In this document: positions 10,001 to 45,290 of the stretch, piece after piece
How the letters are laid out: each line of letters opens with the position of its first letter
Numbering within the stretch: position 1 is the first letter of the stretch
Origin: a virus
Virus record (IMG/VR): IMGVR_UViG_3300022602_000166
Span: 1 to 46,393 of that record
DNA: 46,393 bases
Direction: 5' to 3' (one strand)
Notes under the pieces: generated by a model
Database searches by the model: none
Seen by the model: the letters and a program-made list of their open reading frames with translations, nothing else
What the model was told of the DNA's origin: nothing
Program-made: the position numbers and the translations under genes

Positions 10001-12657
10001 CCAATAGGTCCCGTGCTACCTGTGGCTCCGCTCCCGCCGATGGGTCCTGTTGCTCCGGTATTTCCCGCTGGCCCTGTCGAGCCCGTAGCGCCCGAGTAAG
10101 CGGCTCCTGTCGCACCCGTTCCACCTGTGGGACCGGTGGCTCCCGAAAATGCGGCTCCCGTTGCGCCGGTATTTCCGATTGGGCCGGTGCTTCCCGTTGC
10201 GCCAATCGGACCCGTCGCTCCGCTTGGTCCAATTTGCGTGTACATCACTTGTTGTACGGTGAGCAGAACGCCAGGAGCAACAGGACTCGTCGGAGTAGTG
10301 CCCGCTGGAGTTGTTGCGATTGAAACTTGGGTTGACTCCGCCTGCCAATAGAACTCTACGTACTCATTGACTTGTGAGGTGGTGACGATGAACGGAATTG
10401 TGGCAACCGCAAATCCGTTGGTGCCGCCGTGCGCCGAAGGAACCGAGATTAAAGAGTTGGTATCGGCAACGTCTGTTCCATTTTGACGCAACCAGAGTGA
10501 TGCGTTTTGAGAACTTCCGCTACCCGCGCTACCCGTATTTTGGAACAGGATGCTGATATTGAGTTCGTAGGTTCCTGGTCTTGAGAAGATTACGTCACTG
10601 ACGCTCCCGCCAGTGCCAAGACTTATCCCGTTACCCGTCCCTAAGCCAATGGCTACTTGATAGGCCGTTGTCGTGGAAGTGATCGCTTGATTCGTTGTGT
10701 CGTAGAAGTTCCCGTAGTTTCCGAGGGCTCCACCCGTGCCCGTAGCGCCGGTCGCCCCAGTTGCTCCAATGCCAGATGTTGGCGTCCACAAGATTTGGTC
10801 GGTGCCGATGAGGATGTACCCGTCCGTCAAACTTCCGGAGGCGTACATGATGAACTGCTTGCCGTTATTTACAGTCCCCGAAACGATGAACGTATAGTCA
10901 CCTGGCCCAACCTCGTTGGTAGTGCTGTCGTTGTAATCCGATGATCGAATGAGTGACCACGGAGCCAGGATTGAGCCGGTCGTGTTGACAACATAAATGC
11001 CGTTGGCGATTGCGTTAGAGCCGGTGTTATTTGCCACAAGAACTCGTTGGCCTACCGCTAGGGTTATGCCGTCGAGAACAAGAGCGCCATTGGCTATCGC
11101 CGTAATCGAGGCACCAATACCCGTGCCACCCATCGAGTCTGTCGTTCCAGCCGTGTAAGTAGAGTTTCCTCCGGTTCCTACGTGCACATAAGTTCCAAGG
11201 CCGTAATCTGATACCTGACAAGACGCGTGGGCATTTAGGTTTGACGAAGCACCCGTCGCTCCTTGAGGTCCTGTCGCACCCGTCGCTCCGGTAAACGATG
11301 GACCAGTTGAACCCGTGGCTCCGCTTTGTCCGATGGGACCCGTACTTCCTGTAGCCCCTGAAAATGCCGCTCCCGTTGCGCCTGTATTTCCTTGCGGTCC
11401 CGTCGCACCACTAAATGCCGCCCCAGTAGCACCAGTATTTCCAGTCGGTCCGGTCGAGCCGGTCGCCCCGCTTTGTCCTATTGGTCCGGTCGAGCCGGTT
11501 GCTCCGCTTTGTCCTATGGGTCCACTTGAGCCCGTATTTCCCGTAGCACCACTCGGTCCAGTGTTCCCGTCTGGCCCAGTCGGTCCTGTGGCTCCACTAT
11601 TTCCCTGAGCGCCCGTTTCGCCCGTTGGTCCCGTTGCGCCCGTCGCTCCGATAACGCTTGCGCCAATCGGTCCAGTCGCTCCCGTGTTTCCAACAGGACC
11701 TGTCGAACCCGTTGCTCCTGAGTATGCCGCCCCAGTATCTCCTTGAGGCCCAGTGCTTCCAGTATTTCCTTGTGGTCCGGTTGCACCTGAGAATGAAGCA
11801 CCCGTTGCTCCTGTCGCACCCGTGAATGCCGCTCCTGTCGGTCCGGTTCCACCAATCGGCCCAGTGCTTCCGGTATTACCTTGAGGTCCCGTGAACGATG
11901 CACCCGTAGCGCCAGTTGAGCCAACGGGTCCCGTTGAGCCAGTTGCTCCCGAGAACGCCGCTCCTGTCGGTCCCGTTGAACCCGTGTTGCCAAGAGGACC
12001 CGTGCTACCCGTCGCACCGCTTTGTCCGATTGGACCCGTGCTTCCAGTGGCTCCGCTTTGCCCGGTCGGTCCCGTTGCGCCGGTGTTACCTTGAGGTCCG
12101 GTACTGCCGGTATTTCCAAGAGGCCCCGTAGCGCCAGTGTTACCCGTAGGTCCCGTAGCGCCCGAGAACGCCGCTCCTTGAACGCCTGTTGCGCCTGTAA
12201 ATCCTTGTGGACCTGTCGCTCCCGTGGCACCCGTGAACGCTGGCCCCGTGCTTCCTGTGTTGCCAACTGGTCCTGTGCTTCCGGTTGCGCCGCTTTGTCC
12301 GACAGAGCCTGTCGCTCCAGTACTTCCAAGAGGACCCGTAGAGCCCGTTGCTCCACTCCCTCCAACATTTCCTTGTGGTCCCGTTGCGCCTGTAGCGCCG
12401 CTTTGTCCGATGGGTCCCGTAGGACCAGTATTTCCAAGAGGTCCCGTAGGGCCGATTGGTCCAGTAGCGCCCTCTGCTCCACCCGCTCCAGTTTGAACCG
12501 TAAGTTCAACCGTGACCGTACCAACCTCGGTGCTGATTTCGATAGGGCCAATCTCACCAAAGTTCGCTTGGACGCCAACCGAGGAAGTGCTCACATAGGC
12601 ACCTACTTCAACGGGTCCCGCTGGCCCAACCGTTACGTCGAGGTATTCATCGGTCAT
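7096..12657 (-). CDS. Giant collagen-like tail fibre / virion fibre protein with C1q-like domains
   Basis: The 1853-residue product is a mosaic. Residues 1-57 are an anchoring head. Gly-X-Y collagen repeats of the GATGPTGN and [11 protein letters not shown] kinds fill about 58-465, 805-900, 1195-1360 and 1437-1500. Between them, about 471-640 is a phage-fibre domain with [16 protein letters not shown], and about 650-800 a C1q/TNF-like jelly roll. Residues 902-1195 are two tandem modules beginning GGDLSG and ending in YDANxAxWL, with a third partial copy near 1600-1710. The last 140 residues are a C1q-like head (WTKITPL...[12 protein letters not shown]). It should trimerise and act in adsorption. 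Its ATG overlaps the previous stop (TAATG). Thr/Ser at the Y position are potential O-glycosylation sites. Confidence 0.92.
11236..12486 (-). repeat. Degenerate collagen-coding repeat tract (Gly-X-Y), largest of four
   Basis: The minus strand repeats nine-base units encoding Gly-X-Y, arranged in higher-order units such as [19 protein letters not shown] and FSGATG. Individual units differ mostly at third positions. The same repeats recur at about 9950-10240, 8580-9070 and 8150-8345. The frame stays open throughout, so the repeats are protein-coding, not a CRISPR array. Confidence 0.9.
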
Positions 12658-30163: not shown

Positions 30164-30625
30164 TTAGGCGGCGAATACGCTTTGCCATCTGCTCCTAAAA
30201 ATATCACTAATCGGCACGCGTGCTTTTTCCACGCCTGGGGCAAGATATAGATACGGAGGCTGGCCGGGGTTTGTGAAGTCTCTCCCAAGTGAATCCACTC
30301 CATGAAATCCGAGTTCGATTCGTCGGCCATAGATCATCGTTGGTGCGACTTGTGCGATGAATTGCCCAGGTGCGCTTTCGAAGGGTGATGTGACTACGTG
30401 AATAGAGTTCTTCAAATTCTCGCTGATGCTTTGAGGACGGTTGCCGCCAACAGTTCGTCTCGTTCCTGGTGGATGCTGTCCGTTGAATTGCAAGCGTGCC
30501 GCCCTCACGATGACTTCGGCGCTTTCCTGCATGGCAACATACGTAGCCGCTTTGATGGCCTCGGCCAGTGCGTCGAGCGATGCGTTGAATCCACCAAGGT
30601 TGCCGAACTCCCACTCAGAAGCCAT
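30164..30625 (-). CDS. HK97 gp10-like neck / minor structural protein
   Basis: The 153 residues fit the gp10-like family: helix ALAEAIKAATYVAMQESAEVI, HPPGTRRTVGGNRPQSISENL followed by KNSIHV, then GQFIAQVAPTMIYGRRIELG and FTNPGQPPYLYLAPGVEKA. It starts at an ATG overlapping the MuF stop as TAATG. In HK97-like phages this protein joins the tail side of the head; here it sits behind the MuF gene, far from the tail module. Confidence 0.75.
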   Translation of the reverse strand: MASEWEFGNLGGFNASLDALAEAIKAATYVAMQESAEVIVRAARLQFNGQHPPGTRRTVGGNRPQSISENLKNSIHVVTSPFESAPGQFIAQVAPTMIYGRRIELGFHGVDSLGRDFTNPGQPPYLYLAPGVEKARVPISDIFRSRWQSVFAA

Positions 30626-33363
30626 TAGCCCGTTTCCTCTTGACTTGATTGGTCATTCGCTTGTGGCTCATCGGTCTGGTCTGCTTGCTGGCTTGGCTGA
30701 GTCCACGACTGTGATTCCTCATCCCATGCGTATGCCTCTCCATCGTCTTCGGGCGATAGCGCCTCACGGCTCGTGTCCGCTCCTTCTGTGGAAATAACCG
30801 GCAGGGTTACGCAACGGCAATTTGGGTGAAGTGGTGGTTGATTGGTGCCATTATCCTCGCCCCCACCTCCGTCGCTTGAGGAATCGCTTGAGGAATCCCC
30901 GCCACCGTCGTCGGCTTTTCCAAGATCGGATTCGTCTGCGCTTGCGTCGTCCGATGCGCTTGTGTCACCACCGTCATCCGATGAAGTGTCGCTGCTTGAT
31001 GCGGCATCGTCCACTTCAAAGATTTTACCGTCTTTGTCCGAGCAATCCAAGCATGTGCGCTCATCGTTTTCGGCCAACCATTCATATTGAGCAATACCGT
31101 TCGCTTGGTAAGAATCAATGTTGGCTTGTGTCATCACGCGTGATGTCTCGGTCGTGGCAATCATCAAGGCATTGTCCGAGACGATGGAGTCCTCCGTTAC
31201 TTTTCCAGCGTCGTCCGTTGTGTAGAGAGCATTGGCGATCGTTTGGCTTGAGTCACCGTTGCGGAGCCCATCGGCAATCGCACTGGTGAGTCGGTCCAAG
31301 CCCGTGTCCAAGCACGATTTGATCGTAATGCCCGCACTATCCAAAAGGCTTTGAAGTCCGCCGAACTCAGCGAGGTCTGCGGCTTCCGCCCATCCCGGCT
31401 CCCACGAACTCCAATCAAGCATTGTCTCCGCTCCGCGCAAGGCCGATGAGATTGCCGCACCCGAGCCGATTTGATTGAGCGCTACCGTGGTGCCACCAAT
31501 GAAACTATCTCCGTAGATCATCTGCAAAACACTCATCGCCTCGTCGGGTGAGATGTTCATGTACTGGGCAACTGCTTCGGCGGCGGCTTCGTAGGCCGGG
31601 TCCGATGCGTCGCTACCTGTTGCTTTGGTCGCCACCTTTGTCGGTACATATTTGCGTTGTGCGCCAGCAATCGCTTGTGGGATTCCGGTGATGGCCTTCG
31701 TCATCGCCTTCTTGAGTTTCGGCGTGTAGAGGTCAATGATTTTATCAGCGATTCGGTGGTTGGGATGTTGACCCCAATCAATGCGTCGTGCTTTTTCCAA
31801 GCGTTCAATCTCGGCGTTCACAACTTCCATTTCTTTGCGCAAGGTTTGTTGTGCCTCGTCATAGAGCGTGTCAATCAAAGCCTTTTTACTTGCTTCAAGT
31901 GTTACCATGACACCGCGTTGGCTTAGTGCCGACTTGGGAATGGTTGAGTTGTCCAACAACCACGACCGATATTTTGACGGCAGTTGGTCAAGGTTTTGCG
32001 CCCTACCGCACTCGTCAATGATTTTTGTATTCTGTACGTCAATTTTATTGCCGCCTGATGTCCCGCCATCGCCACTACCGAACCGTCCATCCGAATCTCT
32101 TGGCTGATCGGGGTTGTACGATTTTGCCGTTTGCTCAAGATACGTCGTCGCTTCATCCTTGAGTTTCTGTGGTGCTGGAGTCCATGACGGCAAGGCCATG
32201 CTGTTCTTGAGTTTGGCCGACAACATTTGCGTTGCTTTGAGATTGATGTGGTTCACCGATGCGTAGGAGGCTAGATCGGTGATGTCGGGGAAGTCCCAAA
32301 AGCCGGTCTTTATCCAGTCCGAGTTGATGAGGTTGTTGTCTACATTGATTGTTTGTTTGGCCGCTTTTGCTGCACCACTCTCGTCGGGCAATCCTTGAAC
32401 TTTTGGGAATGGTCCATCCGTGATACTTAGAACAGTAGACTCTTTGACGCCTCCGAGAACGACCATTTCCCTCTCGTTCAGGCAACCGTTTCCTGTTGCT
32501 GGCATCGAGAGGATGTCTTTTGCCTTCACTTCGGTTGCGAAACAAGAATCATCAGCATCTGCGAATTTCCTCGCTATTCGCGGGTCTGTGCTGTAACTGC
32601 TGAGTGGTCGAAGTTCGGCGTCGAACGTTTTGCCTATCGAGCCGAGGGGGAAGGCCTCCACCCCCCTGTAAAGCAATAGCGTATCATCCGGACCGATTCC
32701 CTGCTTGGCAAACTCTGCTTGTGTGGCGTTGTACTGAGTTCGGAGAAAATCCTTGTAAACCTCGCCATTCTCATTGAACTCTTTCTGCGCCATTTGCAAG
32801 GTGTCTTGATCGGACTCAGTCCATTCGGCGTGGTTTTTGATTCCGAACTCCTCGGCCGCTGCTTGCTGTATAGCCAGGGCAACAGAATTGCTATCGTTTG
32901 AAGTTCTTGCCCACTGGCCAACAAGGGTTGATACGCATTCTTCTCTTACCATCCTATACCCATCTTCGCTCAATGGCTGAAGGTTGTCACTAGGGTTCAG
33001 CCTGCCCTCGGCAACGCCCAGGCTCAAGGTTGAAGAGGTCATATTTTTTGCGATCTCAGCACAAGTTTGCGCTTTGAGAACTTGGCTTTGAATCATCTCA
33101 TCGTTGAACGATGGTTTGCCAGTCCTAGCAAGAGCCTCTTGAGTTATTTTGTCAAACGGTTCTCTACTATTGACAATGCGCCGACTCTCGCCTTCTTTCG
33201 GCGTTTTTGTTTCGCCATCACCTTCACCAAACCGACCGCCCGCTCCGCGTGGATGCGCGCTCTCGTCCCATTCCTTGGCGAGCGCCTTGGCAAGAGGCGT
33301 TTGACCGTCGGCATCCACCGTGATTAGTGAACGCAAGCGCGTGGCAAGATCAATGGGGGTCAC
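30625..33363 (-). CDS. MuF-type head morphogenesis protein with an N-terminal putative ADP-ribosyltransferase
   Basis: The 912-residue protein starts at a GTG. Residues 33-46 carry WDESAHPRGAGGRFG, a phage linker motif; a second RDSDGRFGSGDGG lies near 422. Residues about 140-310 look like an R-S-E ADP-ribosyltransferase: LLLYRGVEAFPLG (Arg233), LSSYSTDPRIARKF (Ser258-Thr259), and CLNEREMVVLGG with the ExE pair Glu297/Glu299. Residues 731-855 are the Mu gpF domain: MIATTETSRVMTQANIDSYQ, then WLAENDERTCLDCSDKDGKI and PPLHPNCRCVTLP, interrupted by an acidic Ser/Asp/Gly insert at 787-838. MuF proteins sit at the portal and can be injected. The ART may modify host proteins on DNA entry. Target unknown. 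Confidence 0.82.
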   Translation of the reverse strand: MTPIDLATRLRSLITVDADGQTPLAKALAKEWDESAHPRGAGGRFGEGDGETKTPKEGESRRIVNSREPFDKITQEALARTGKPSFNDEMIQSQVLKAQTCAEIAKNMTSSTLSLGVAEGRLNPSDNLQPLSEDGYRMVREECVSTLVGQWARTSNDSNSVALAIQQAAAEEFGIKNHAEWTESDQDTLQMAQKEFNENGEVYKDFLRTQYNATQAEFAKQGIGPDDTLLLYRGVEAFPLGSIGKTFDAELRPLSSYSTDPRIARKFADADDSCFATEVKAKDILSMPATGNGCLNEREMVVLGGVKESTVLSITDGPFPKVQGLPDESGAAKAAKQTINVDNNLINSDWIKTGFWDFPDITDLASYASVNHINLKATQMLSAKLKNSMALPSWTPAPQKLKDEATTYLEQTAKSYNPDQPRDSDGRFGSGDGGTSGGNKIDVQNTKIIDECGRAQNLDQLPSKYRSWLLDNSTIPKSALSQRGVMVTLEASKKALIDTLYDEAQQTLRKEMEVVNAEIERLEKARRIDWGQHPNHRIADKIIDLYTPKLKKAMTKAITGIPQAIAGAQRKYVPTKVATKATGSDASDPAYEAAAEAVAQYMNISPDEAMSVLQMIYGDSFIGGTTVALNQIGSGAAISSALRGAETMLDWSSWEPGWAEAADLAEFGGLQSLLDSAGITIKSCLDTGLDRLTSAIADGLRNGDSSQTIANALYTTDDAGKVTEDSIVSDNALMIATTETSRVMTQANIDSYQANGIAQYEWLAENDERTCLDCSDKDGKIFEVDDAASSSDTSSDDGGDTSASDDASADESDLGKADDGGGDSSSDSSSDGGGGEDNGTNQPPLHPNCRCVTLPVISTEGADTSREALSPEDDGEAYAWDEESQSWTQPSQQADQTDEPQANDQSSQEETG

Positions 33364-34555: not shown

Positions 34556-37438
34556 CTAGGAGCGGACCTTGGCTTGGGCTTGCTCAAGGAGCCCGTAGGT
34601 CCTTCGGAGCCGGTCAAGTTCTGGTCGTAGCATCTGCTCAACAACCATGGCGGCCTTCGTCACGTCGTCGTCGGCGTCAATCTCTTCGATTTGCTCCTCA
34701 ACGTCTTTGCCGTCCTCTTGGTCCGGTGTCGTCTTGGCGGGTTGGCTTGCGTCAAGAACGGGAAACTCATCTTCCGTTTTGTCGGCGTGTTGGACCACGA
34801 TGGTGTCGCCCGCCTTCAATGGTTCGGGCATCCTTACTTGACCGCTCGGAGTAAGGAATGCAACGTCACCATCCGATTTCTTGCCCTCGGTGGCAAGTAT
34901 TCCGTTCGTCCACGACACGGCAGGGTCACCACCCCAAGCGGCCCATGCAACGCGACCTGGCGATGGGTAGCCGTCGTCGCCGGGACTCCAACCTTTTCCT
35001 TGCTCATCAACTTCGTGACGTGCGAGGTAACTTGCCATGCGCTTGATAATTGCAAGGGATACGGGTCGGCCTGCGGCGAGGTCGCCAGCGCGCCCGCGAC
35101 CGACTGCCGTGAATCCTCCACCTGCGTGTCCGTCCTTAATCCACCCAACTGCTCGCTGTGCTTCTTCTTGTACGCCTTGTGGTGGTGTGTAAGTTTCGCC
35201 TGCCGCTTTTTTGCCTTCCGTTCCCGGTGCTCCACCTGTAGCGTCTTGGTGACGTAGATTGCAGAAGCCCTCGGGGTCGTCAACATACTGACCAGCGATT
35301 GCCACGCAAGCATCGAAGTCTCCGGGCTCGCCCCATTCGATTTGTCCGTCGGCTCCATCGTTGTACCACTCGATTAGAGCGGACGCGTCGCCGCCAGAAT
35401 CTTTTGCCAACTCATGTCGGATTGCGGTTAGTCCGCCTTCTCGACCTGCTTTGTTGAGGGCTTCCCCTCGCTCGGGTGTGAGGACCTCGAATCGGAAATT
35501 CCGCCAAGTAGCACGGTCAACGCGGGCCTTTGCGAACTTTGTGAAGGTGGCGATTTCTTTTTCGACCTCGGGTTGTCGGACGTCGTTTTTTGGCGTGACG
35601 CTTGGCGTCTTAGAATCTCCACCACCATTGGCGCTAGGGCTTCCGCCAGTAGGTCCAGGTCCAGCAGATTCATTAGCGTTGTCTGCATCTCCAGCAGTTC
35701 CTGCATTCCCTGCGGCGTCGTTGTTGTTATTTTGGCTGTCATCTGTCTGTCCTGTTGTGGATGGCTTTGGCTGTGCGCCTCCGGCCTGCGCCGCCTGCTG
35801 TTGGGCAAGTGTACCTGCCAAGAATGTTACTCCGGTTCCAACCGTGACACCGAGTTGGTCGGCTTCTGGTTCTGCCATGAGAGGGATGCCGCGCTCGGCA
35901 CGAATCTCGTTACGGGTTCGTATGCCAGCGTTGATGTCTATTTGATCGGCCTGTGCACGCGTAAGGTCGTCGTCGTCATTACCTCCGCCAGTTGCGGTAA
36001 TCGTCAACTCCGGCCCTATGCCCATGAATCGTCGCGCTAGGTCGTTGATGCAGTCAACCAAGAAGTTCTTCAAGGCTTCGGTTGCGTATGCCTCGTACTG
36101 GTCGGACTCTCCCTTTTCGTGGCCGCTCCCTAGTGACGACTTTGCTCCGATACCGAGCATGTTCGACGGGATGCCAAACTTCGCTCCGATTTGTTGGACT
36201 AGCCACTGGTCGTAGGTTGACTTGTATGCCTCGTCCACGCCCTTTAGTTGATCGGCCTTCATTCCGGGACGGAGAAGCATGAAGTTTTGGCGACGCGCCG
36301 TTTGTCCAGAAAACTGGTCGTTGTAGATTCGCTCGTAGTAGGCGAGTTGTTCTGGTGTCCATGATTCCGAGCCGTCAGTAGTAACAACCATCTTCGGCGT
36401 TACGCCATTGGAGTATTCGGCATGAAGCCACGCTTGTCGTTCCATGTAGATCGTGGCAATGTTGATACACTCTTCGACCTGGCTGTAGCCATAGATACTG
36501 TTCGGTCGTGGGCGTCGGATGTAATACGCCATTTGGTCACCCGTGTATCCGTTAGGAACCTTGCCATCTTGCTCGACGTTCTCGGCTTGGAATTCGCCAC
36601 GAGGAAAGCCGTAGAGGATTTGCTGGAAGGCAGGTGCTGGTGGACGAGGGATGAAGCCTTGGTTGTCCAAAAGAATCTTGATGGTACTGGTGTCAATCGT
36701 TGACAATGAGGTGAGTTCCCCGCCAAGGTTGTACTCGGGCGAGATAACGATTCCGTCGTAGACCAGGTGAGAGTAAATGATGTCCGTCAACCATTGGGAG
36801 AATGTGAAGCCCATCCGTTTGTCGGGGTAATCAAAGAACTGTTGCACGCGTGCGAGTTCGTCACCGTACTTTTCTCGTGCGAGTGTTGCGGCCTTGGAAG
36901 TGTTGGTTATCCCCTCTTCCGTCATGACCTGTTGAAGAATTTGCGAACTGAAGCCCCACGACCACTCCAAGCCAACGATGGCGTCTTGAACGATCTGGAT
37001 ACATCGTTGGATGATGTCTACGTCCTCGGCCAAACCCTTGAGTACCGACCACGGAACCCGACGGTCAATAAGGTTGACGTTGGCCGCAATCAGATACTCG
37101 GTGCGTCGAGCGAGGGTGCGACCGCTGGGGGTAAGTGGGTCAATCGCGTCAGGGAACAGCGGATTTGCAGGACCGAAGCCACTGTCGAACATTCCTGGGG
37201 GTCTTGGTAATGGCTGGAAGCCTTGACCTGGGCCTACTTGATTGAACGGCGAGTCTGAACTTCGGTTGAACACTGGATACGTTGCGCCAGACGACATAAC
37301 GCCACCACTGCCATTTGCCGATGCTTGTGCCAGTGCCGGTGAGATGGCCTTTTCGACCTCTTCGCCTACGCGCTTTTCAACAAGTGCTTCTATCTCTGCT
37401 TGCTTACGCTCTCGTCGTCGCCCTATCGGACCTGCCAT
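34556..37438 (-). CDS. Portal protein with long C-terminal extension, 960 aa
   Basis: Translation starts at ATG 37438 (MAGPIGRRRERKQ), preceded by AGAGG; the longer open frame overlaps the terminase nuclease gene. Residues 1-480 are a typical portal: ARRTEYLIAANVNLIDRRVP, WLTDIIYSHLVYDGIVISPE, EYNLGGELTSLSTIDTSTI, then the FGIPSNMLGIGAKSSLGSG and ESDQYEAYATEALKNFLVD stretch near 430-465. A Pro/Asn/Ala-rich linker follows. The extension contains KARVDRATWRNFRFEVL near 640, DDPEGFCNLRHQDATGG near 715, and a DGHAGGGFTAVGRGRAGDL...PSPGRVAWAAWGGD module near 760-846 known from other phage head proteins. A dodecamer channel for DNA entry is expected. Confidence 0.88.
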   Translation of the reverse strand: MAGPIGRRRERKQAEIEALVEKRVGEEVEKAISPALAQASANGSGGVMSSGATYPVFNRSSDSPFNQVGPGQGFQPLPRPPGMFDSGFGPANPLFPDAIDPLTPSGRTLARRTEYLIAANVNLIDRRVPWSVLKGLAEDVDIIQRCIQIVQDAIVGLEWSWGFSSQILQQVMTEEGITNTSKAATLAREKYGDELARVQQFFDYPDKRMGFTFSQWLTDIIYSHLVYDGIVISPEYNLGGELTSLSTIDTSTIKILLDNQGFIPRPPAPAFQQILYGFPRGEFQAENVEQDGKVPNGYTGDQMAYYIRRPRPNSIYGYSQVEECINIATIYMERQAWLHAEYSNGVTPKMVVTTDGSESWTPEQLAYYERIYNDQFSGQTARRQNFMLLRPGMKADQLKGVDEAYKSTYDQWLVQQIGAKFGIPSNMLGIGAKSSLGSGHEKGESDQYEAYATEALKNFLVDCINDLARRFMGIGPELTITATGGGNDDDDLTRAQADQIDINAGIRTRNEIRAERGIPLMAEPEADQLGVTVGTGVTFLAGTLAQQQAAQAGGAQPKPSTTGQTDDSQNNNNDAAGNAGTAGDADNANESAGPGPTGGSPSANGGGDSKTPSVTPKNDVRQPEVEKEIATFTKFAKARVDRATWRNFRFEVLTPERGEALNKAGREGGLTAIRHELAKDSGGDASALIEWYNDGADGQIEWGEPGDFDACVAIAGQYVDDPEGFCNLRHQDATGGAPGTEGKKAAGETYTPPQGVQEEAQRAVGWIKDGHAGGGFTAVGRGRAGDLAAGRPVSLAIIKRMASYLARHEVDEQGKGWSPGDDGYPSPGRVAWAAWGGDPAVSWTNGILATEGKKSDGDVAFLTPSGQVRMPEPLKAGDTIVVQHADKTEDEFPVLDASQPAKTTPDQEDGKDVEEQIEEIDADDDVTKAAMVVEQMLRPELDRLRRTYGLLEQAQAKVRS

Positions 37439-37448
37439 TGAAAACCTC

Positions 37449-38249
37449 TCATCGCCTATTGAACGGTGTCCACTGTTGCGGACCAAACTGTTTGATTGCG
37501 TCAACAACCGCCTGGTTCCGATCATAGGTCATGCCACCGACTTGCGTTCCCGATGTTAAAGTGAATGCTTCGGGTTCTAGCAATTCCGGTTCTGAAGCCT
37601 CTGGAACCTCTAACTCCGCACCACACTTGGAACACCGCAAACGACCACGTTCATTGAGTTGGCCGCAAGTGCATTCGATTGCCATTGACTCTATCCACTC
37701 TTTGCCGCCAGAGAACTTGGTCAAGCCGAGTTCACTGAGTCCCCAAACCAGTGCATCCAACCTGTCTGGGCTCTCTCCGCTATCCGTTGTCCATGTTGTG
37801 AGTTGATCTTCGAGGATTGGGAAAGAACCGCAGTGGTGGATTCTTCCCTGTTCGTACAGCGCCGCTACCGGCTCGGCACGCGTGCGCTTTCCCTGTCTTG
37901 CGTGAACCCTCTTGAACGGCGCTCCTGGGAAAACTGACCGAACAACCGTTTCGACCATCTCGCCGCCTTGGTTCCCTTCCGCAACGATTCGGTCGGCTTT
38001 CCATTTGTGGAATGCGTCGGCAATAACGTGAGCCCATCCGTCTGGGGTGTACTTGCCCGACAAGTCATCGAGTACAAAGCCGTGCTTTTTGCAGTTGGCA
38101 ACCGTGCAAAGAATTCCCGAGTTCTCCACTTCGTAGTGTGGTCCCTCGGCTACCACAATGATTCCTGTTTCGTCGGAGTCGTCGCCAGATGTTGTTGCTG
38201 GGTCAACAGCCACGATAATCCGTCGCATATTTTTCAGGCTGATGGTCAT
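37449..38249 (-). CDS. Large terminase nuclease domain, separate gene
   Basis: This 266-residue protein is the RNase-H-like nuclease half of a large terminase: RRIIVAVDPATTSGDDSDETG with Asp16, RIVAEGNQGGEMVETVV with Glu91, and ESPDRLDALVWGLSEL with Asp162/Asp165. C-terminal to it is a zinc-ribbon (CTCGQLNE and RCSKCG, Cys 193/195/206/209) and a tail. In one-piece terminases the ATPase part runs straight into VAVDPA. It begins with an ATGA overlap with the small gene 38246-38497 and is followed by the portal gene. It should cut the concatemer during packaging together with the ATPase gene product. Confidence 0.88.
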   Translation of the reverse strand: MTISLKNMRRIIVAVDPATTSGDDSDETGIIVVAEGPHYEVENSGILCTVANCKKHGFVLDDLSGKYTPDGWAHVIADAFHKWKADRIVAEGNQGGEMVETVVRSVFPGAPFKRVHARQGKRTRAEPVAALYEQGRIHHCGSFPILEDQLTTWTTDSGESPDRLDALVWGLSELGLTKFSGGKEWIESMAIECTCGQLNERGRLRCSKCGAELEVPEASEPELLEPEAFTLTSGTQVGGMTYDRNQAVVDAIKQFGPQQWTPFNRR

Positions 38250-38497
38250 AGGGAATCTTCCAAACCTACCAGCGTGACCTCATGCTGGGTTTCAATCCAA
38301 ACCCTCGCGCCGCAACTTAACGGCTTATCTGGTTGATACACAACGCGAGCCAACTCCTCGCCGTTATCAGATTTGATAACAACCTCGTGAGCGTAGCGAT
38401 TTTCCTTGTACGTCTTGACGGTTAGCACTGGCTCGGTCGTTCCCTCTTTGGCGTTCCGTCGGATGACGTGCTGGTTAACGTGAATGATGGTCTTCAT
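38246..38497 (-). CDS. Small protein gene lodged between the two terminase halves, 83 aa
   Basis: The ATG at 38497 follows GGAAAAGGGCA. The product starts MKTIIHVNQHVIRRNAKEG, continues VLTVKTYKENRYAHEVVI and ends SCGARVWIETQHEVTLVG. It looks like a small conserved phage protein; I recall relatives in actinobacteriophages near head genes but cannot assign a function. It is not a homing nuclease (no HNH or LAGLIDADG motif). It separates the ATPase gene (76 bases upstream) from the nuclease gene (ATGA overlap). Confidence 0.75.
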   Translation of the reverse strand: MKTIIHVNQHVIRRNAKEGTTEPVLTVKTYKENRYAHEVVIKSDNGEELARVVYQPDKPLSCGARVWIETQHEVTLVGLEDSL

Positions 38498-38573
38498 TGC
38501 CCTTTTCCAATCATACGAATCAAGAGACAAGGTGTTTCCTGCGTGCATGTGAATGCCTCGGACGCGCCCACGA

Positions 38574-39464
38574 TCAGTCTATTTCCAGATCAACTCGAAG
38601 GTCGTCAATGTTTTCTAAAGTCCACAACGCTCCGTCTACATCGGTCAGCATTTCACCCATCAACTCCTGGCGACCAATGCGTGTGCCCTCGTAGGTTGAG
38701 ATGACTTGCTCACGGAATGAGCCCGCCAAGTTCTTGAGGTTGGAGTATGTGCTGTCGGTTGTGATGGCGGTTGACTTCCGGTCCATGATTTCTCGGATAA
38801 GCCGCACGCGCTTTGGCGTTGTGGTTACGAAGCACTGAGGATTCTCACCTAGACGGAGGCCAAGCATCAAGTTGTTCCATGAGGTGTCTAGTACGTCGCC
38901 CTTCCTTGCGTCGAACCATGCCGCCGTTTCATCACACCAAGCCGCGTCATGTTGTGGCCCTCGCAACTGCGATGGCGCTGCCGCCGAGTAAGTGAATGCT
39001 TGCGCCCCATTCGGCCAGATGAGCCGACGCTTCGTTGGTTCGTGTATCGGTCGCTCGTGAGGGTCACTGACTGCCATAATCCCCGAGTCTCCATAGATCA
39101 TGACGTCACGGGCATCGGCTGGGGTTCTTGCGATTAGCGCGATGCGCTTCTTCCCCTGGTTCCACACCTGGTCGAGCACCCACTCTGCTCCGGCTCTTGT
39201 TTTGCCCGTACCTCTTCCCCCCGAGAAAAGCCAGACCAGCCAATCGCCTTTCGGGGAACGTTGTGATGGGCGTGCGTGCCGACAGGCGAAGGTGTGTGGG
39301 CCTTCCATCGGGTGAATGCACCAGTGGAAACCTTCGTGCGGTTCTCCGTCGCACTCATCATTCGGACACCACCACCGCCTCGATAGCGTCGGGGTCTCCA
39401 ACTGAGAGACCACCGATTCTAAGAGCGGCGACAAAGTAGTTTCGGAATTCATCAACTCGGTCAT
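38574..39464 (-). CDS. Large terminase ATPase domain, separate gene
   Basis: The 296-residue protein is the packaging motor half of a large terminase. An N-terminal Cys/His region, residues 31-65 (WWCPNDECDGEPHEGFHWC), may bind zinc. Walker A is SGGRGTGKT at 81-89, Walker B AAWCDE at 174-179 and the coupling motif CFVTTTPKRVRLI near 212. It ends at the linker (GALWTLENIDD) where one-piece enzymes continue into the nuclease. Its start overlaps the small terminase gene by 107 bases, which is unusually long; no later start keeps the Cys region and has a better ribosome site. Confidence 0.9.
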   Translation of the reverse strand: MTELMNSETTLSPLLESVVSQLETPTLSRRWWCPNDECDGEPHEGFHWCIHPMEGPHTFACRHARPSQRSPKGDWLVWLFSGGRGTGKTRAGAEWVLDQVWNQGKKRIALIARTPADARDVMIYGDSGIMAVSDPHERPIHEPTKRRLIWPNGAQAFTYSAAAPSQLRGPQHDAAWCDETAAWFDARKGDVLDTSWNNLMLGLRLGENPQCFVTTTPKRVRLIREIMDRKSTAITTDSTYSNLKNLAGSFREQVISTYEGTRIGRQELMGEMLTDVDGALWTLENIDDLRVDLEID

Positions 39465-40000: not shown

Positions 40001-41263
40001 CTACTCGTTGAGGAACGAAACTTCTTCGCCAGTTGCTTCGTGTATTGGAGCGATGCCGGTGACACCCTGGAAACGGTTGCAGATGACGTCACAGTAGGCA
40101 GGGTCAAGTTCAATCGCCGCCGCTTTGCGTCGCAGTTCTTCACAAGCGATGACAATGGTTCCCGATCCAGCAAAAGTGTCCAAAACAATGTCGCCGCTAA
40201 CGCTGGAGTTTTTGATTGCCCTGGCCCACAGTTCAACAGGTTTCATCGTTGGGTGAAGTTTTGATGCGTGGGGTTTGTTGATGCTCCAAACACTTGTTTC
40301 GTTGTTTTCGCCGTAAAACTTGTGAGATCCTTTCACCCACCCATAAATAATCGGTTCGTGTTGGTAGTTGTAATCCGAGCGGCCCAAGACAAAGTTGTTT
40401 TTAGCCCAGATCAGCATGTGCCGTAAGGGGAAACCGTTATCGGCAAGGCTTTGGAGAAGAAGGACGAGGAGATCGCCGCCCTGCGGCCCAGTGACGTAAT
40501 AGCACGCTCCTTTGCTCAAACTTGGAAGAACCGCCTGCCAAGTTTTTTGCCACAAGTCCGCCACCTCGTTTGGCGTTAGATGATCGTTCCTGATGGGAGT
40601 TTGAACACGATTACCCTTGTCCATTGAGTTTAGAAACTGATTTTTGTCAGCGTAAGAAACGCCATACGGCGGATCGGTGATGAACAGTTGTGCCGATTTG
40701 CCATTCAACACTCGTTTGATAACTTCCTGGTCGGTAGCATCTCCACAGATCAAACGATGTGGGCCAAGTAGCCAAACGTCTCCAGGCTTTGTCACGGGGT
40801 CAAGCGGTGGTTCGATCTCTCCAGGTTCTTTGACCTCAGCCATCGGCTCCGGCTTGAACTCGGCAATCAAGTCGTCCAAGTCGTCGCCAGTGAAGCCAGT
40901 TCCCGTAAGACCAAACTCACTATGAATCAAAGACTCAAGCAGGTCGGTCAGGATTGCTGGATCGTTCTGTGCTTTGTTTGCGGTCTCGTTGTCGGCCAAC
41001 ATGATGCGAAGCGCCTGATCGTCGTCGATGTCGTGAATGATGACGTCGATCTCCGTGAGTCCGTCAATCTTGCAGGCCTGAACCGTGTGATTACCGGCGA
41101 TGATGTTCATGGTGGACTTCTGAACCAAGACGGGTCTGAAGTATCCGTGAGCCTCAAGTGATTCAACGATTGCCCCAACGTCTCCCTGGTTTGGATTCAA
41201 TGGGTGCTGGTTCAGGTTTCCAATCTTGACTCTAGTGAGTTCAAGTTTGCCGATTTTCTTCAT
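40001..41263 (-). CDS. ParB-like domain fused to DNA methyltransferase
   Basis: Start is ATG 41263, giving an ATGA overlap with the upstream ParB gene and a strong AGGAGA site. Residues 1-95 are ParB/Srx-like (MKKIGKLELTRVKIGNLNQH, AGNHTVQACKIDG). Residues 155-420 are an amino-methyltransferase: HRLICGDATDQE near 170, catalytic DPPY at 197-200, and the SAM motif DTFAGSGT at 362-369 with IELDPAYCDV beyond. DPPY suits adenine-N6 or cytosine-N4 methylation. ParB-methylase fusions are frequent in phages. It probably protects phage DNA against restriction or marks it; target site unknown. Confidence 0.87.
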   Translation of the reverse strand: MKKIGKLELTRVKIGNLNQHPLNPNQGDVGAIVESLEAHGYFRPVLVQKSTMNIIAGNHTVQACKIDGLTEIDVIIHDIDDDQALRIMLADNETANKAQNDPAILTDLLESLIHSEFGLTGTGFTGDDLDDLIAEFKPEPMAEVKEPGEIEPPLDPVTKPGDVWLLGPHRLICGDATDQEVIKRVLNGKSAQLFITDPPYGVSYADKNQFLNSMDKGNRVQTPIRNDHLTPNEVADLWQKTWQAVLPSLSKGACYYVTGPQGGDLLVLLLQSLADNGFPLRHMLIWAKNNFVLGRSDYNYQHEPIIYGWVKGSHKFYGENNETSVWSINKPHASKLHPTMKPVELWARAIKNSSVSGDIVLDTFAGSGTIVIACEELRRKAAAIELDPAYCDVICNRFQGVTGIAPIHEATGEEVSFLNE

Positions 41264-41688
41264 GTTGTCTCCTCTGATAGTTCCTGGATCATGACCCAGT
41301 GCCAATCGTGGCCTTCGGCTATGGAGTGCTCCGAGATAAAGTTGCGCGCCGGACCTGGACCCTTTGATTTTGTGTCGCCCAGATCGTCAAGGGTCTCGTA
41401 GTCGCGTTGGTAGATCGGGTCCAAGATCATGCGCAACGCTTCTTCGTCCGTACAATCCCGCAAGATGACGTCAATCTCCTCAAAGCCCTCAATCTCAGTC
41501 GCTTGTACCGTGTGGTTTCCTGCGATGATGCGCATGGTGGACTTTTGGACAAGCACGGGTTTCATGTAGCCATGTGATTCCAATGACTCAACGATGATTC
41601 CGATGTCGCCTTGGTTGGGGTTGTTCGGGTGCTGTCTAAGGTCTCGGACTTTCACACGCGTTAATTCAAGCGCTCCAACTTTTTTCAT
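41260..41688 (-). CDS. Free-standing ParB-like domain protein, paralog of the fusion's N-terminus
   Basis: Residues 1-90 align with the ParB part of the downstream fusion at about two-thirds identity by eye (LELTRVKVRDLRQHPNNPNQ; AGNHTVQATEIEG). The C-terminal 50 residues are unrelated (RDYETLDDLGDTKSKGPGPA) and carry no methylase motifs. It looks like a tandem duplicate that lost or never had the catalytic domain. ParB-like folds may act as CTPases or nucleases or just bind DNA. It is joined to both neighbours by ATGA overlaps. Confidence 0.82.
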   Translation of the reverse strand: MKKVGALELTRVKVRDLRQHPNNPNQGDIGIIVESLESHGYMKPVLVQKSTMRIIAGNHTVQATEIEGFEEIDVILRDCTDEEALRMILDPIYQRDYETLDDLGDTKSKGPGPARNFISEHSIAEGHDWHWVMIQELSEETT

Positions 41689-41918
41689 TTGTTCTCCTCC
41701 GCTAAAAACTCTAAAAGCAGTGTGTAGGCGTGGCCGAAATGGTCCATGCCCTGTTTCACTTCCCCAAAGATTTTAAATCCAAGCGGGTGTAGCGATTCGT
41801 TGATCAATGCCAATGACCCGTTGAGACTTTGCAGTCCGGCATTATAGGCGTCAAGGACCATCTCTGCTTCGGTCATCACCACGATTTTATCGGGAATGCC
41901 GATGATGTCGTTATTCAT
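41685..41918 (-). CDS. Small hypothetical protein, 77 aa
   Basis: Largely helical: VVMTEAEMVLDAYNAGLQSL, LALINESLHPLGFKIF and FGHAYTLLLEFLAEEN. No family recognised. It overlaps the ParB gene by four bases and the HNH gene by eight, which is the evidence that it is a real gene. Confidence 0.68.
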   Translation of the reverse strand: MNNDIIGIPDKIVVMTEAEMVLDAYNAGLQSLNGSLALINESLHPLGFKIFGEVKQGMDHFGHAYTLLLEFLAEENK

Positions 41919-42300
41919 TGTTCACTGCCTCCATGTGATCTACGATACAGTCCTTCTCGTTGCACTTCACGCGCACCCGTGCCGCTTTGGCAATTACCTC
42001 CGGCTCGTATTGCCATGCCGAGAGTGAGAGACCGTGCCCATTTGCCCATTTTGGGTTTTGTGTGACCCATGAATGGCACCTCCTACACAGAGATACGAAT
42101 AATTCCGGCTCTAACCACGCTGTGCTTCGCTGTGAGCGATTGATTAGTTCGTGAACATCGGTAGCACTGCTTTGGCATAGCGTCGCTATACGGGCCTCAC
42201 AGAGGCTTTTGCGGGCAAGTTGGGCTCGGCGCAGTTCTTGGCGCTCGGGGATGGCTTCGGAGCGCTTTTTGCTCACAGGGTTGATGCGGCTCCGTTTCAT
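41911..42300 (-). CDS. HNH-type endonuclease-like protein
   Basis: The 129-residue protein has a basic N-terminus (MKRSRINPVSKKRSEAIPER) and the HNH core CEARIATLCQSSATDVHELI, then LFVSLCRRCHSWV and NPKWANGHGLSLS, with Cys pairs (CxxxxxxC and CRRC) for zinc and catalytic His in DVHE. Phage HNH proteins next to terminase and methylase genes often help packaging or DNA maturation. It shares an ATGA overlap with the upstream methylase. NinG-like recombination nucleases are an alternative. Confidence 0.75.
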   Translation of the reverse strand: MKRSRINPVSKKRSEAIPERQELRRAQLARKSLCEARIATLCQSSATDVHELINRSQRSTAWLEPELFVSLCRRCHSWVTQNPKWANGHGLSLSAWQYEPEVIAKAARVRVKCNEKDCIVDHMEAVNNE

Positions 42301-43256
42301 CGGGTCCCAAACAATGTCGTCGGCTCGTTATCAATCCGAGTCTTTGCCATTTCCGCATACTCGGGATTGAGTTCAACCCACAAGAACTCTCGGCCATGAC
42401 GCTTAGCCACCACGCCAACGGTTCCCGAACCTGCAAACGGGTCAAGCACTAAATCGCCGTGTGCTGAACCAGCAAGGACACACGGCTCAACCAATGCTTC
42501 GGGCATGACGGCAAAGTGCGCTCCCTTGAATGGCTTGGTGTTGATTGTCCAAACGTCACGGCGATTGCGAGTTGAGTAACCCTTCTCGGCTAGTTCTTGC
42601 GCCAACTTTTTCTTTGCCTCAATCATTCCGCCATTACCTCCACCAATGCCGTGAGTTTTTCGTGTGTCTCGTTGTGGAGAACCTGCGCTATTGCCTGCGA
42701 CCATTACGCCACGTTCTCGCACCGCCTCGTGGTCGTAGTAATACCGAGCGGACTTGCTTAGTAGAAAGACGTACTCATGGCTTTTGACGCATCGGTCTTT
42801 GACCGGCTCAGGCATGGGATTTGGCTTAGCCCAGATAATGTCTTGGCGCAGATACCAACCGTCTTCCTGAAGCGCAAACGCAACTCGCCAGGGTATGCCG
42901 ATGAGGTCTTTGGGCTTTAGGCCATAGGTTGCGCCCTTGTTCGCATAGTCTGGTTGCCACCCCTCGCTTCGCATCTTGTCGGATTGACCACCTTTGCCTG
43001 AGCCCGCATACGAGTCCCCTAAGTTCAGCCATAGCGTTCCGTCGTCAGTCAAAACCTCACGCACCAAACGAAAAACATTGACCATTTGCTCAACATATTC
43101 ATCGGGCGTCTGTTCAAGTCCAATCTGTCCATCGTGGCCGTAGTCACGAAGTCCAAAGTACGGCGGTGAGGTAATGCAAGTGCGAACGCTCTTTGGCTCC
43201 ACCTCTAAAAGCCGTTGTCGAACGTCGCCAGTAATCACCACTTGACTCGCCTTCAT
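42297..43256 (-). CDS. DNA amino-methyltransferase with TSPPY motif
   Basis: The 319-residue enzyme has the catalytic motif TSPPY at 29-33 and the SAM-binding motif DPFAGSGTVG at 272-281, followed by VELNPEYAEM. TSPPY is typical of cytosine-N4 methylases, so the likely product is N4-methylcytosine. An internal region (WTINTKPFKGAHFAVMPEAL) is the target-recognition side. ATGA overlaps link it to both neighbours. It differs clearly from the other two methylases in the cluster. Confidence 0.87.
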   Translation of the reverse strand: MKASQVVITGDVRQRLLEVEPKSVRTCITSPPYFGLRDYGHDGQIGLEQTPDEYVEQMVNVFRLVREVLTDDGTLWLNLGDSYAGSGKGGQSDKMRSEGWQPDYANKGATYGLKPKDLIGIPWRVAFALQEDGWYLRQDIIWAKPNPMPEPVKDRCVKSHEYVFLLSKSARYYYDHEAVRERGVMVAGNSAGSPQRDTRKTHGIGGGNGGMIEAKKKLAQELAEKGYSTRNRRDVWTINTKPFKGAHFAVMPEALVEPCVLAGSAHGDLVLDPFAGSGTVGVVAKRHGREFLWVELNPEYAEMAKTRIDNEPTTLFGTR

Positions 43257-43810
43257 CGGTACTCGGCAAGCACGCTTGGCTTCTGCAATAGGTCCGGCTG
43301 GAACCAGCGCCGCTTCAAGTCGTTACCCCATGGCGTAGCCAAGTCCCAAACGTTGATTGCTCGGGCCTCACCAATTATTTCAACTCTTGGGTAATTGTTT
43401 TCTGCGTCGCACCCGTGGACTTGAGCCCAAACAATGAGGTGGTCGTTCGTGTAGTCCTTCTCGTCAATGGGAACGCGAGTGCCGGTGCGCCGTCGTTTTA
43501 CTTCAATGCCAAATGACACGGGCTCACCATCTTTGTTCAGGCGTCGCAAAGTAATATCAGCGTGTTTATCTCGGTGCTTATAGTGCTCGGTTGGTGCCCA
43601 ATGACCGGCGTGCCAATAACCACCGTAGGCACGGGCGACTGCAACTTCGGCTCGTGCGGCGTCAATACTTGCTCGGTCGTTATCGGGTTGAAGTTTGCTT
43701 TTGTCATATGAGGTGCGGTCGGCTTTGCCAGCATTGGCATAATGCACCGAGATGCCGACGTGATGAGCGTGTATATCCTCCCATGATTCAAGCGTTATCC
43801 AAATGCTCAT
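43253..43810 (-). CDS. Possible PD-(D/E)xK-type nuclease or restriction-like protein
   Basis: The 185 residues include KHADITLRRLNKDGE followed by FGIEVKRRRTGT, which fits the D...ExK core of the nuclease superfamily, plus later HLIVWAQVHG and PRVEIIGEARA strands. I cannot see a family name. It lies between two methylases with ATGA overlaps on both sides, the arrangement of a restriction-modification-like or DNA-processing set. Function is inference. Confidence 0.6.
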   Translation of the reverse strand: MSIWITLESWEDIHAHHVGISVHYANAGKADRTSYDKSKLQPDNDRASIDAARAEVAVARAYGGYWHAGHWAPTEHYKHRDKHADITLRRLNKDGEPVSFGIEVKRRRTGTRVPIDEKDYTNDHLIVWAQVHGCDAENNYPRVEIIGEARAINVWDLATPWGNDLKRRWFQPDLLQKPSVLAEYR

Positions 43811-45114
43811 GGCATATTAAACAGTGTCGGTTCTTTGATTTCGAGCGGCTGTTCTTTTGCCCACTCAACGCGAGCCTCAATGATCGGCCAGTAGTCCTCG
43901 GTCATCTCGCAACCAGCCCAGTCGAAGCCCTCCAAAATGGCGGCCACCGCAGTTGTGCCTGAACCAAGGAACGGGTCAAACACAACACCCCCAGGGGGCG
44001 TGACGAGTTTGACTAAGTAGCGCATAAGCGCAAGCGGCTTGACGGTTGGGTGGATGTTGGCGACTGGCTTGGCTTTGATTGCATCTTCGACGCTTCGCAT
44101 TCCCCCAGTGCCCCCGACTCCACCCTTCTTGTACCTGTTTGACTTTGGCAGCCCCTCAAGCCCTGCGTTCCTCTCGGACTTGCTCGCCTTGGCGCAGTAG
44201 AAGAATCGCGACGCGCCGCCCGTATCGCCGTAACCGATGTCGTCCATCGGCGGTTTTGCCTTATCGCCTCCGAAAGTGTTTCCACCGGCATTACCTCGAA
44301 CCGCAATTCCGCTTTTACCCACACCGCTCTGCGCGTCAAGTTCAACACCAGCGTCCTCGTCAAAGATGATGTTGGCGGGCCAGCGACCAGCGTTCAGTTC
44401 GGCAATCCCGTGGCCCTTCATGTTCTCCCACCCAGCATCGTTGGGTGTGTCCGCCTTGCCGTCCCGTCGGGTGCCGCCCTCGGTCCCGATCCGACACCCG
44501 TCGATGTTCAGCGCCCCAGTCCCATGCTCCAAGACATTGTTCGCCACCGTGCCGATGAGCGGCTTGCGTGCGACGACAATAGGCTCATGGGCTGGCTTTA
44601 GTGCTGTTCCCCAGCCGTCCCACTTTTGGGCCTCGGAAGTTGCCGGGGCTGTGAACTCAAATACATCTTGCTTTTCCGTTTCGCCAGCACCTGTTCCGTC
44701 TGGCTGGTGAAATCCTGAACGCATTGTCTTTGCCTTGCCCGTTAGTGGGCGACTTCCAACAACCTCGCGCTTAGCCCCCGCCGCCTTGTCAATCGCCTTG
44801 CTCACGTTGAGCGATTTCGGGAACCCCGAGCCGTATATCCAATGAATCGAATCACGGATCTCGAAGCCTGCGTCCTCAATGGCACACGCCATGCGGTGAT
44901 AGGTACGCGTTCCACCAAAAGCGAGCAGGTGTCCACCTGGTTTCAATATGCGCAACGCCTCGCTCCACATTTCAACCGAATAGGCGATGCCAGCGTTGTC
45001 CCAGGACTTACCCATGAACCCAAGTTCGTAGGGTGGGTCGGTGACGATGGAGTCAACTGAGTTCTCCGGCATTTCCTTCATGGCCGTCAGGCACTCCAAA
45101 CGATGCAGGGTCAT
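43807..45114 (-). CDS. DNA adenine/cytosine-N4 methyltransferase (DPPY type)
   Basis: I start at ATG 45114, whose ATGA overlaps the zinc-ribbon stop and which has GAAGGG five bases upstream; an ATG eight codons earlier lacks a site. The 435-residue enzyme has TDPPYELGF at 25-33, a large target-recognition insert (about 120-330, including RPLTGKAKTMRSGFHQ and a GGTRRDG stretch) and FDPFLGSGTT from about 379. The order DPPY before the FxGxG motif marks a class beta amino-methylase. It would methylate phage or host DNA; target unknown. Confidence 0.87.
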   Translation of the reverse strand: MTLHRLECLTAMKEMPENSVDSIVTDPPYELGFMGKSWDNAGIAYSVEMWSEALRILKPGGHLLAFGGTRTYHRMACAIEDAGFEIRDSIHWIYGSGFPKSLNVSKAIDKAAGAKREVVGSRPLTGKAKTMRSGFHQPDGTGAGETEKQDVFEFTAPATSEAQKWDGWGTALKPAHEPIVVARKPLIGTVANNVLEHGTGALNIDGCRIGTEGGTRRDGKADTPNDAGWENMKGHGIAELNAGRWPANIIFDEDAGVELDAQSGVGKSGIAVRGNAGGNTFGGDKAKPPMDDIGYGDTGGASRFFYCAKASKSERNAGLEGLPKSNRYKKGGVGGTGGMRSVEDAIKAKPVANIHPTVKPLALMRYLVKLVTPPGGVVFDPFLGSGTTAVAAILEGFDWAGCEMTEDYWPIIEARVEWAKEQPLEIKEPTLFNMP

Positions 45115-45290
45115 GGCACCCTTCGACAAGTGTGACATGAGACCTGGCCATACGAATCTGTTTTCCAGTCATGGTCACACCGATAAATTGGCTCGTGGCG
45201 TAATCCACACGGCGTGCAACGGAGGTCGCCGTTGCCTGCGGCTTTGTGGTGGGTTTGCTTGGCGCATCGAGGGCAGTAGTAGGTTGTCAT
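45111..45290 (-). CDS. Zinc-ribbon microprotein, 59 aa
   Basis: ATG at 45290 follows AAAGGGAGT. The 59 residues hold CPRC (6-9), CTPC (25-28), a Cys38/His40 pair and CHTC (52-55), so one or two zinc sites. Its stop overlaps the methylase start (ATGA). The strong ribosome site, the coupling and the regular Cys pairs make it a real gene. It may be a methylase partner or DNA-binding helper. Confidence 0.78.
   Translation of the reverse strand: MTTYYCPRCAKQTHHKAAGNGDLRCTPCGLRHEPIYRCDHDWKTDSYGQVSCHTCRRVP

Follow-up and report, generated by a model that had tools for sequence, protein, structure and literature searches.

Fusions of MuF head proteins with ADP-ribosyltransferase (ART) domains are already on record: putative ARTs make up 14% of MuF toxins, the E. 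faecalis MuF protein EFV has ART activity, and packaging and injection have been proposed for MuF toxins (PMC5576092). Alt/VIP2 and N4-type phage ARTs are also fused to MuF in some phages (PMC9503650). Here we analysed a viral DNA of 46,393 nucleotides (positions 1 to 46,393 of IMG/VR record IMGVR_UViG_3300022602_000166; the whole stretch is called the window) and in it a protein of 912 amino acids (aa), encoded at 30625-33363 on the minus strand, in which a MuF domain is preceded by a putative ART domain related to DraT. DraT, the dinitrogenase-reductase ADP-ribosyltransferase, acts on protein arginine and is the off-switch of bacterial nitrogenase.

Like EFV and the other MuF toxins, this protein has a MuF domain (here PF04233), is encoded near a portal gene and is fused to an ART. 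It differs from them in that the ART is N-terminal, of the DraT type and bounded by linkers of the HPRxxxGRF kind, and in that no immunity gene is evident. The Alt/VIP2 and N4-type ARTs, described in PMC9503650 as head-associated and thought to be injected with the DNA, are similar in that respect but belong to other ART families. No match to PF03496 (ADPrib_exo_Tox/Alt-VIP2) was found with Pfam in the window or among the families listed for 43 domain rows. An earlier note on this DNA, made from the sequence alone, had drawn a parallel with T4 Alt; the parallel holds for delivery only, the ART being DraT-like and not Alt-like. In several relatives the domain is embedded in a very large multidomain phage protein, some of these also with ART-PolyVal, InPase, NUDIX or zeta domains, and in this they recall the polyvalent proteins, whose described ARTs are of the H-Y-D clade whereas the present domain is of the R-S-E class and DraT type (PMC5512222). 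In the available part of PMC9503650, DraT appears only in a DraG-DraT comparison and no DraT-like MuF fusion was found. Our literature search, incomplete in coverage, returned nothing on DraT-like phage ARTs or on linker-bounded exchange. A DraT-type ART in a phage head protein and a linker-delimited swap appear to be new, while the MuF-ART fusion as such is not.

We propose, with a probability of roughly 0.7, that a tailed phage here encodes a minor head protein (MuF) whose N-terminal half is an exchangeable R-S-ExE mono-ADP-ribosyltransferase module, from a family sister to DraT, injected to modify a host protein. The open reading frame (ORF) is intact over 912 aa and starts with GTG, as judged from the ORF list and the translation. 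The Mu gpF domain that the earlier note placed in the C-terminal part was recovered with Pfam, and this part of the protein also matched many PHROG minor-head families. The layout is as follows.

30625..33363, minus strand: minor head protein of the MuF family with an N-terminal DraT-like ADP-ribosyltransferase domain, predicted; 912 aa (ORF list, translation, Pfam PF04233).
33226..33363, minus strand: N-terminal leader, residues 1-46, ending in linker 1 (...KEWDESAHPRGAGGRFG); 98% identity in a sibling phage.
32947..33126, minus strand: helical stretch ahead of the ART core, residues 80-139 (AlphaFold model, lower confidence).
32416..32946, minus strand: predicted DraT-like ADP-ribosyltransferase core, residues 140-316 (viral relatives, hhalign to DraT, AlphaFold and PDB fold matches).
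32665..32667, minus strand: Arg233 of LYRG, the R of R-S-E, invariant (viral rows; aligned with DraT R178).
32590..32598, minus strand: Ser256-Tyr257-Ser258, the S motif (viral rows and DraT alignment).
32467..32475, minus strand: Glu297-Arg298-Glu299, the ExE, Glu299 being invariant (viral rows; aligned with DraT E246-G-E248).
32077..32100, minus strand: linker 2, RDSDGRFG, residues 422-429.
32022..33226, minus strand: exchangeable segment, replaced in the sibling phage by unrelated sequence of about 1.13 kb (blastn of the window against L265/L270/L269).
30805..31290, minus strand: Mu gpF (MuF) domain, residues 692-853 (Pfam PF04233, E = 1.8e-17; PHROG minor head families).

The exchange was seen in two contigs from other samples, which represent a sibling phage about 99% identical to this one. 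In blastn, their identity to the window was 98-99% on either side of the ART (over window 39000-33227 and 32021-28433, as far as each contig extends), and the 1.2 kb at 33226-32022 was replaced. The leader and the MuF domain were retained at 97-99% identity. The upstream breakpoint falls inside the codons of HPRGAGGRFG and the downstream one 18 residues past linker 2. In the sibling, the shared leader is followed by a different ORF of 287 aa with the motifs LFRG and GPGIYTTDN. MuF there occupies a second, overlapping ORF that has a DESEHPRGAGGRFG of its own. Because the sibling swaps the ART between a shared leader and a shared MuF domain, with the upstream break in the linker, the ART is, on these alignments, an exchangeable cassette in the head protein. 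The earlier note was right that linkers (residues 37-46 and 422-429) flank the ART, and the upstream one proves to be a natural exchange point. The window protein is best read, from its sequence, as a fusion of two modules, leader-linker-ART and leader-linker-MuF.

The replacement domain of the sibling matched no Pfam family. It has an ART-like look (LFRG, GPGIYTTDN) and a weak similarity (E = 0.005) to a protein of the related phage contig L275, which we mention as a lead only. The portal protein of L275 is 74% identical to that of the window and is followed by a string of ORFs, several of which begin with a leader and, close to the start, a linker of the HPR..G[RK]F type; one of them holds a DraT-like domain 46% identical to ours. 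As a separate observation, the region L275:11610-19565 looks like an array of probable effector ORFs behind the portal gene, several with leader and HPR..G[RK][FW] linkers and some with ART-like motifs (LYRG..SSFS..EQE; LYRG..GNGIYTT) and no Pfam match.

Single-sequence searches with residues 140-316 alone gave no Pfam match at E<=1 and none in PHROGs or PDB sequences, and a single-protein search of IMG/VR with the ART region returned no relatives. These were recovered only by an alignment-based scan of IMG/VR, which gave 61 loci; a second scan gave 28, with partly overlapping records. The DNA patterns used for the search covered only the stretches [FV][LVI][RQ]..TQ and [VI]LS..TG.G. Because they left out R233, the serines and the ExE, the search did not select for the R, S and E columns, whose invariance is independent evidence. 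In an alignment of 46 distinct rows (the window and 45 viral relatives), W151, Y211, T214, Q215, R233, G234, F267, G291, G293 and E299 were invariant, and E297 was E in 45 rows. The serine motif was slightly less strict, with S255 in 42/46, S256 in 41/46 and S or T at position 258 in 42/46. By these columns the R-S-E set of the family is more than chance. The motifs picked out in the earlier note (LYRG 231-234, SSYSTD 255-260, NEREM 296-300) are all present, in that order. Of the residues it singled out, Arg233 and Glu299 were borne out; Ser258 is uncertain as the catalytic serine, the motif being S256-x-S258 and S256 being the residue that meets the DraT serine.

The family is large and comes mostly from uncultured phages. 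Among 50,697 cultured phage records searched with tblastn, the sole carrier found was Bacillus phage SP-15, whose protein SP15_258, annotated as hypothetical, has the same domain at 27-32% identity (E to 2e-20). Unlike the window protein, SP15_258 is a separate gene of 469 aa (L002:3278-4687) with no MuF fusion; its N-terminal half includes YLTKDYELAQEAA, a stretch that resembles a portion of a second ART-type domain. With tblastn the domain was also found in plasmid proteins of Streptomyces, Verrucosispora and Rhodococcus, several of them fused to NUDIX, and residues 80-139 of the window protein are partly shared with actinobacterial plasmid proteins. Among the Streptomyces/Micromonosporaceae plasmid proteins with a DraT-like domain (L003, L004, L007, L008 and L009), several have the NUDIX domain at the N-terminus; these carriers adjoin a gene for a CehA/McbA-type hydrolase, and L003 and L007 additionally have a type IV secretion coupling gene in the vicinity. 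A scan of genome contigs for relatives of the domain found none.

The relation to DraT was established through the relatives and through profiles. Pfam DRAT (PF07357) matched 25 of 43 phage domains. A relative 42% identical to the window domain (L015) scored 45.9 bits, above the curated cut-off of 25 bits, and another (L056) passed it marginally, with 25.3 bits when neighbouring stretches were included; the window domain did not reach it. For a direct comparison, 16 DraT sequences were aligned, the genes being taken from nitrogen-fixer genomes located by a nifH DNA pattern. The phage profile matched the DraT profile in hhalign at 98.4% (E = 5.6e-15), and at 98.2% (E = 3e-14) with a trimmed alignment. 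The columns of LYRG, S-[FY]-[ST] and E-x-E superposed: Arg233 was aligned with the invariant R178 of DraT, Glu297-Arg298-Glu299 with E246-G-E248 (alignment A5), and S256 with a nearly invariant serine. The likeness extends over about 190 columns and includes a helical lead-in (W...SN..), LYRG, S-[FY]-[ST], A..F, VP..KI and E-x-E...GG.

In the reverse test, the phage profile was run over 26 whole nitrogen-fixer genomes. Outside the Geobacter group it matched the DraT gene (best E = 1.4e-9) in nearly all carriers identified with Pfam DRAT; in genomes lacking DraT, no match was better than 0.006. That the DraT link might be an artefact of weak E-values was considered and discarded on the basis of this reverse search and the profile-profile comparison. 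A wider scan gave 20 profile matches in 399 Pseudomonadota genomes, nearly every one in an ORF of DraT size (about 300 aa), and no match in 397 Actinomycetota and 399 Bacillota genomes, two sets that contain no positive control. The ADP-ribosyltransferase assignment of the earlier note is thus supported by significant two-way profile homology to a mono-ADP-ribosyltransferase.

In a tree, the 16 DraT sequences formed one clade (100/100) on a long branch, and the window domain fell among the phage and plasmid members outside it. Because the tree sets DraT on one side and the window with the phage and plasmid members on the other, the domain is, by its sequence relationships, a sister of DraT and not DraT itself. 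The mean column identity was 21% on the phage side versus 61% for DraT; this greater phage-side diversity allows the possibility that DraT derives from the phage family, without showing it. Apart from its position on the sister side and below the Pfam cut-off, the window domain is unlike DraT in being fused to a phage head protein and in having no DraG-type hydrolase gene (PF03747) in the window; PF03747 was found in 2 of 37 related records. Its target probably differs from that of DraT, and we do not think that it is nitrogenase.

The fold was predicted with AlphaFold for residues 138-318 from 52 sequences. The model was confident (predicted local distance difference test score, pLDDT, 91; predicted template modelling score, pTM, 0.86) and showed the helix-then-strands order expected for an ART. 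Its structural matches in the PDB were ART-fold proteins nearly throughout, led by the mono-ADP-ribosyltransferase ART2.2 (E = 9e-3, probability 0.82) and followed by ExoT, tankyrases and PARP12. In a library of viral structures the best match was the SP-15 protein (E = 3e-14). The fold obtained is therefore not one unrelated to ARTs, and the PDB matches give consistent support for an ART fold, though not proof. A sequence profile search of the PDB gave only low-scoring, apparently chance matches to MRE11 and an isomerase; neither for DraT nor for the phage family did we detect a relative of solved structure by sequence. In the sequence and the model, the putative domain shows the features of the R-S-E superfamily, with the arginine on the first strand, S-x-S/T and [QE]xE in order, and an ART fold.

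Fusion to head proteins recurs in the family. Among 51 phage proteins with the domain, 11 have a MuF domain according to Pfam, 5 a portal domain and one minor capsid 2; at least 14 matched a portal family in PHROG. Further proteins of the set have other, effector-like domains, namely NUDIX, GNAT, ART-PolyVal, Arr, zeta toxin, topoisomerase IB and pyrophosphatase. In most relatives the domain lies near the C-terminus; it precedes MuF in the window (140-316 before 692-853) and in L047, so that this order is unusual but not unique. Because such domains recur fused to portal and MuF head proteins in uncultured phages, injection along with the DNA, so as to modify proteins of the host, is their probable role.

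For the window protein, the MuF domain or the leader would position it at the portal, inside the capsid, and it would enter the cell together with the DNA. There it may bind nicotinamide adenine dinucleotide (NAD) via Arg233, the Ser256/Ser258 motif and the invariant Gly-x-Gly, and Glu299, with Glu297, would pass ADP-ribose to a host protein, most likely on an arginine as DraT does. A host process could in this way be tuned or blocked at the start of infection. Some points weigh against this reading. The window domain alone matched no ART model in Pfam at E<=1; the PDB fold matches had low TM-scores of 0.2-0.34, none of them reaching E = 0.001; the phage has no cultured host; and the window allele was found in one assembly only, so that a chimeric contig is conceivable. 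Speaking against a chimera are the intact ORF and the arrangement in L275, where a related gene whose domain shows 46% identity lies downstream of the portal, itself 74% identical.

An ART-fold NAD glycohydrolase (NADase) or a phosphorylase-type toxin, draining NAD and modifying no protein, seems to us improbable. Some ART-fold toxins are NADases (PMC13285283), and phage ARTs with a possible NAD-degrading role have been proposed (PMC9503650). However, the closest cellular relative is a protein arginine ART, the ExE pair is conserved (E297 in 45/46 and E299 in 46/46 rows), and no immunity gene is evident downstream. The ExE pair is the signature of protein-modifying ARTs in the R-S-E class. We consider it just as improbable that the protein is a polymorphic toxin of a temperate phage or lysogen, directed at competitors and paired with a cognate immunity gene. 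MuF toxins with putative or demonstrated ART activity, such as EFV, would be the precedent (PMC5576092), but their toxin domains are C-terminal while this one is N-terminal. Nor is the gene directly followed by a small unassigned ORF; the ORF directly downstream, of 153 aa, is a Neck1/tail-completion homologue (PHROG phrog_5). That no phage-type copy of the domain was seen among the roughly 1,195 bacterial genomes sampled, in which the matches were almost all in DraT-sized ORFs, speaks against common prophage carriage.

A catalytically dead, structural ART-fold domain aiding head assembly would fit with its fusion to a structural protein and with the inactive effector-like domain of phage Mu gpF itself (PMC5512222). 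We find this very unlikely, as the catalytic residues are invariant over very divergent relatives and the head protein of the 98-99% identical sibling does without the domain, which looks dispensable for assembly. That the protein is a true DraT down-regulating nitrogenase in a diazotrophic host is hardly credible: DraT is its nearest cellular homologue but forms its own long-branched clade with the window outside, DraG-type hydrolases are missing from the window and rare in related records, and the relatives occur across many phages, within head, portal and polyvalent proteins, and also in plasmid proteins of Streptomyces and Rhodococcus.

The linker occurs well beyond this family. In the window it lies at 33229-33252 and is of the type [WF]DExxHPR[DG]xxG[RKQ]F. 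A degenerate DNA pattern for DExxHPR[GD/E]xxG[..]F found at least 120 stretches in IMG/VR (loci L280-L398), and 135 of 135 DNA matches examined lay in frame within an ORF. In a set of 88 linker proteins from the matches listed, Pfam identified MuF, several portal families and a prohead protease, and also ADPrib_exo_Tox, zeta toxin, RelA/SpoT, PBECR, SAM lyase, sigma factor and topoisomerase domains. Because they mix head structure with injected-effector types, this suggests, as a hypothesis, that the linker is a packaging or processing tag. A relaxed form was present in only 6 of 51 DraT-like proteins (shuffled mean 0.11), tblastn found no match to the leader in cultured phages, and we found no paper on the linker string. 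It is tempting, though rather doubtful, to go further and see in the leader and linker a general phage address tag that loads interchangeable effectors into the head, the effectors being swapped at the linker, with DraT as a domesticated offshoot of the phage effector family.

The position of the gene is close to that usual for MuF genes, near the portal gene (PMC5576092), from which two small ORFs separate it.

34556..37525, minus strand: portal protein, 989 aa, upstream of the MuF gene (Pfam PF04860, E = 8.7e-19; PHROG portal).

Residues 779-883 of the portal protein form a C-terminal extension. A 100-aa piece of it matches phrog_2859 and is 40-55% identical to segments of proteins from Synechococcus, Roseobacter and other phages whose annotations read capsid protein, portal or protease. 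Two ORFs (37449-38249 and 38574-39464, minus strand) encode the terminase large subunit, with a 100-aa ORF (38246-38548, minus strand) between them; the halves are nearly contiguous in L275, are separated by a wider gap in L274 and have an extra gap within the N-part in L271. An Rfam check for a group I intron in the split terminase gave no match. Elsewhere, 7096-12657 (minus strand) encodes a probable fibre, a protein of 1853 aa that has collagen-like repeats (PF01391, E = 2.6e-67), and 40001-45138 (minus strand), upstream of the terminase, holds three genes of DNA methyltransferase type, one of which has a ParB-like domain.

DraT is known mainly as a nitrogenase switch, and its nearest kin, being widespread phage head-associated enzymes, give it an evolutionary context. 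Phage biology gains a new class of probably injected protein modifiers. A pair of near-identical phages that differ in their effector is a natural experiment, with which the loading and swapping of injected proteins become directly testable.

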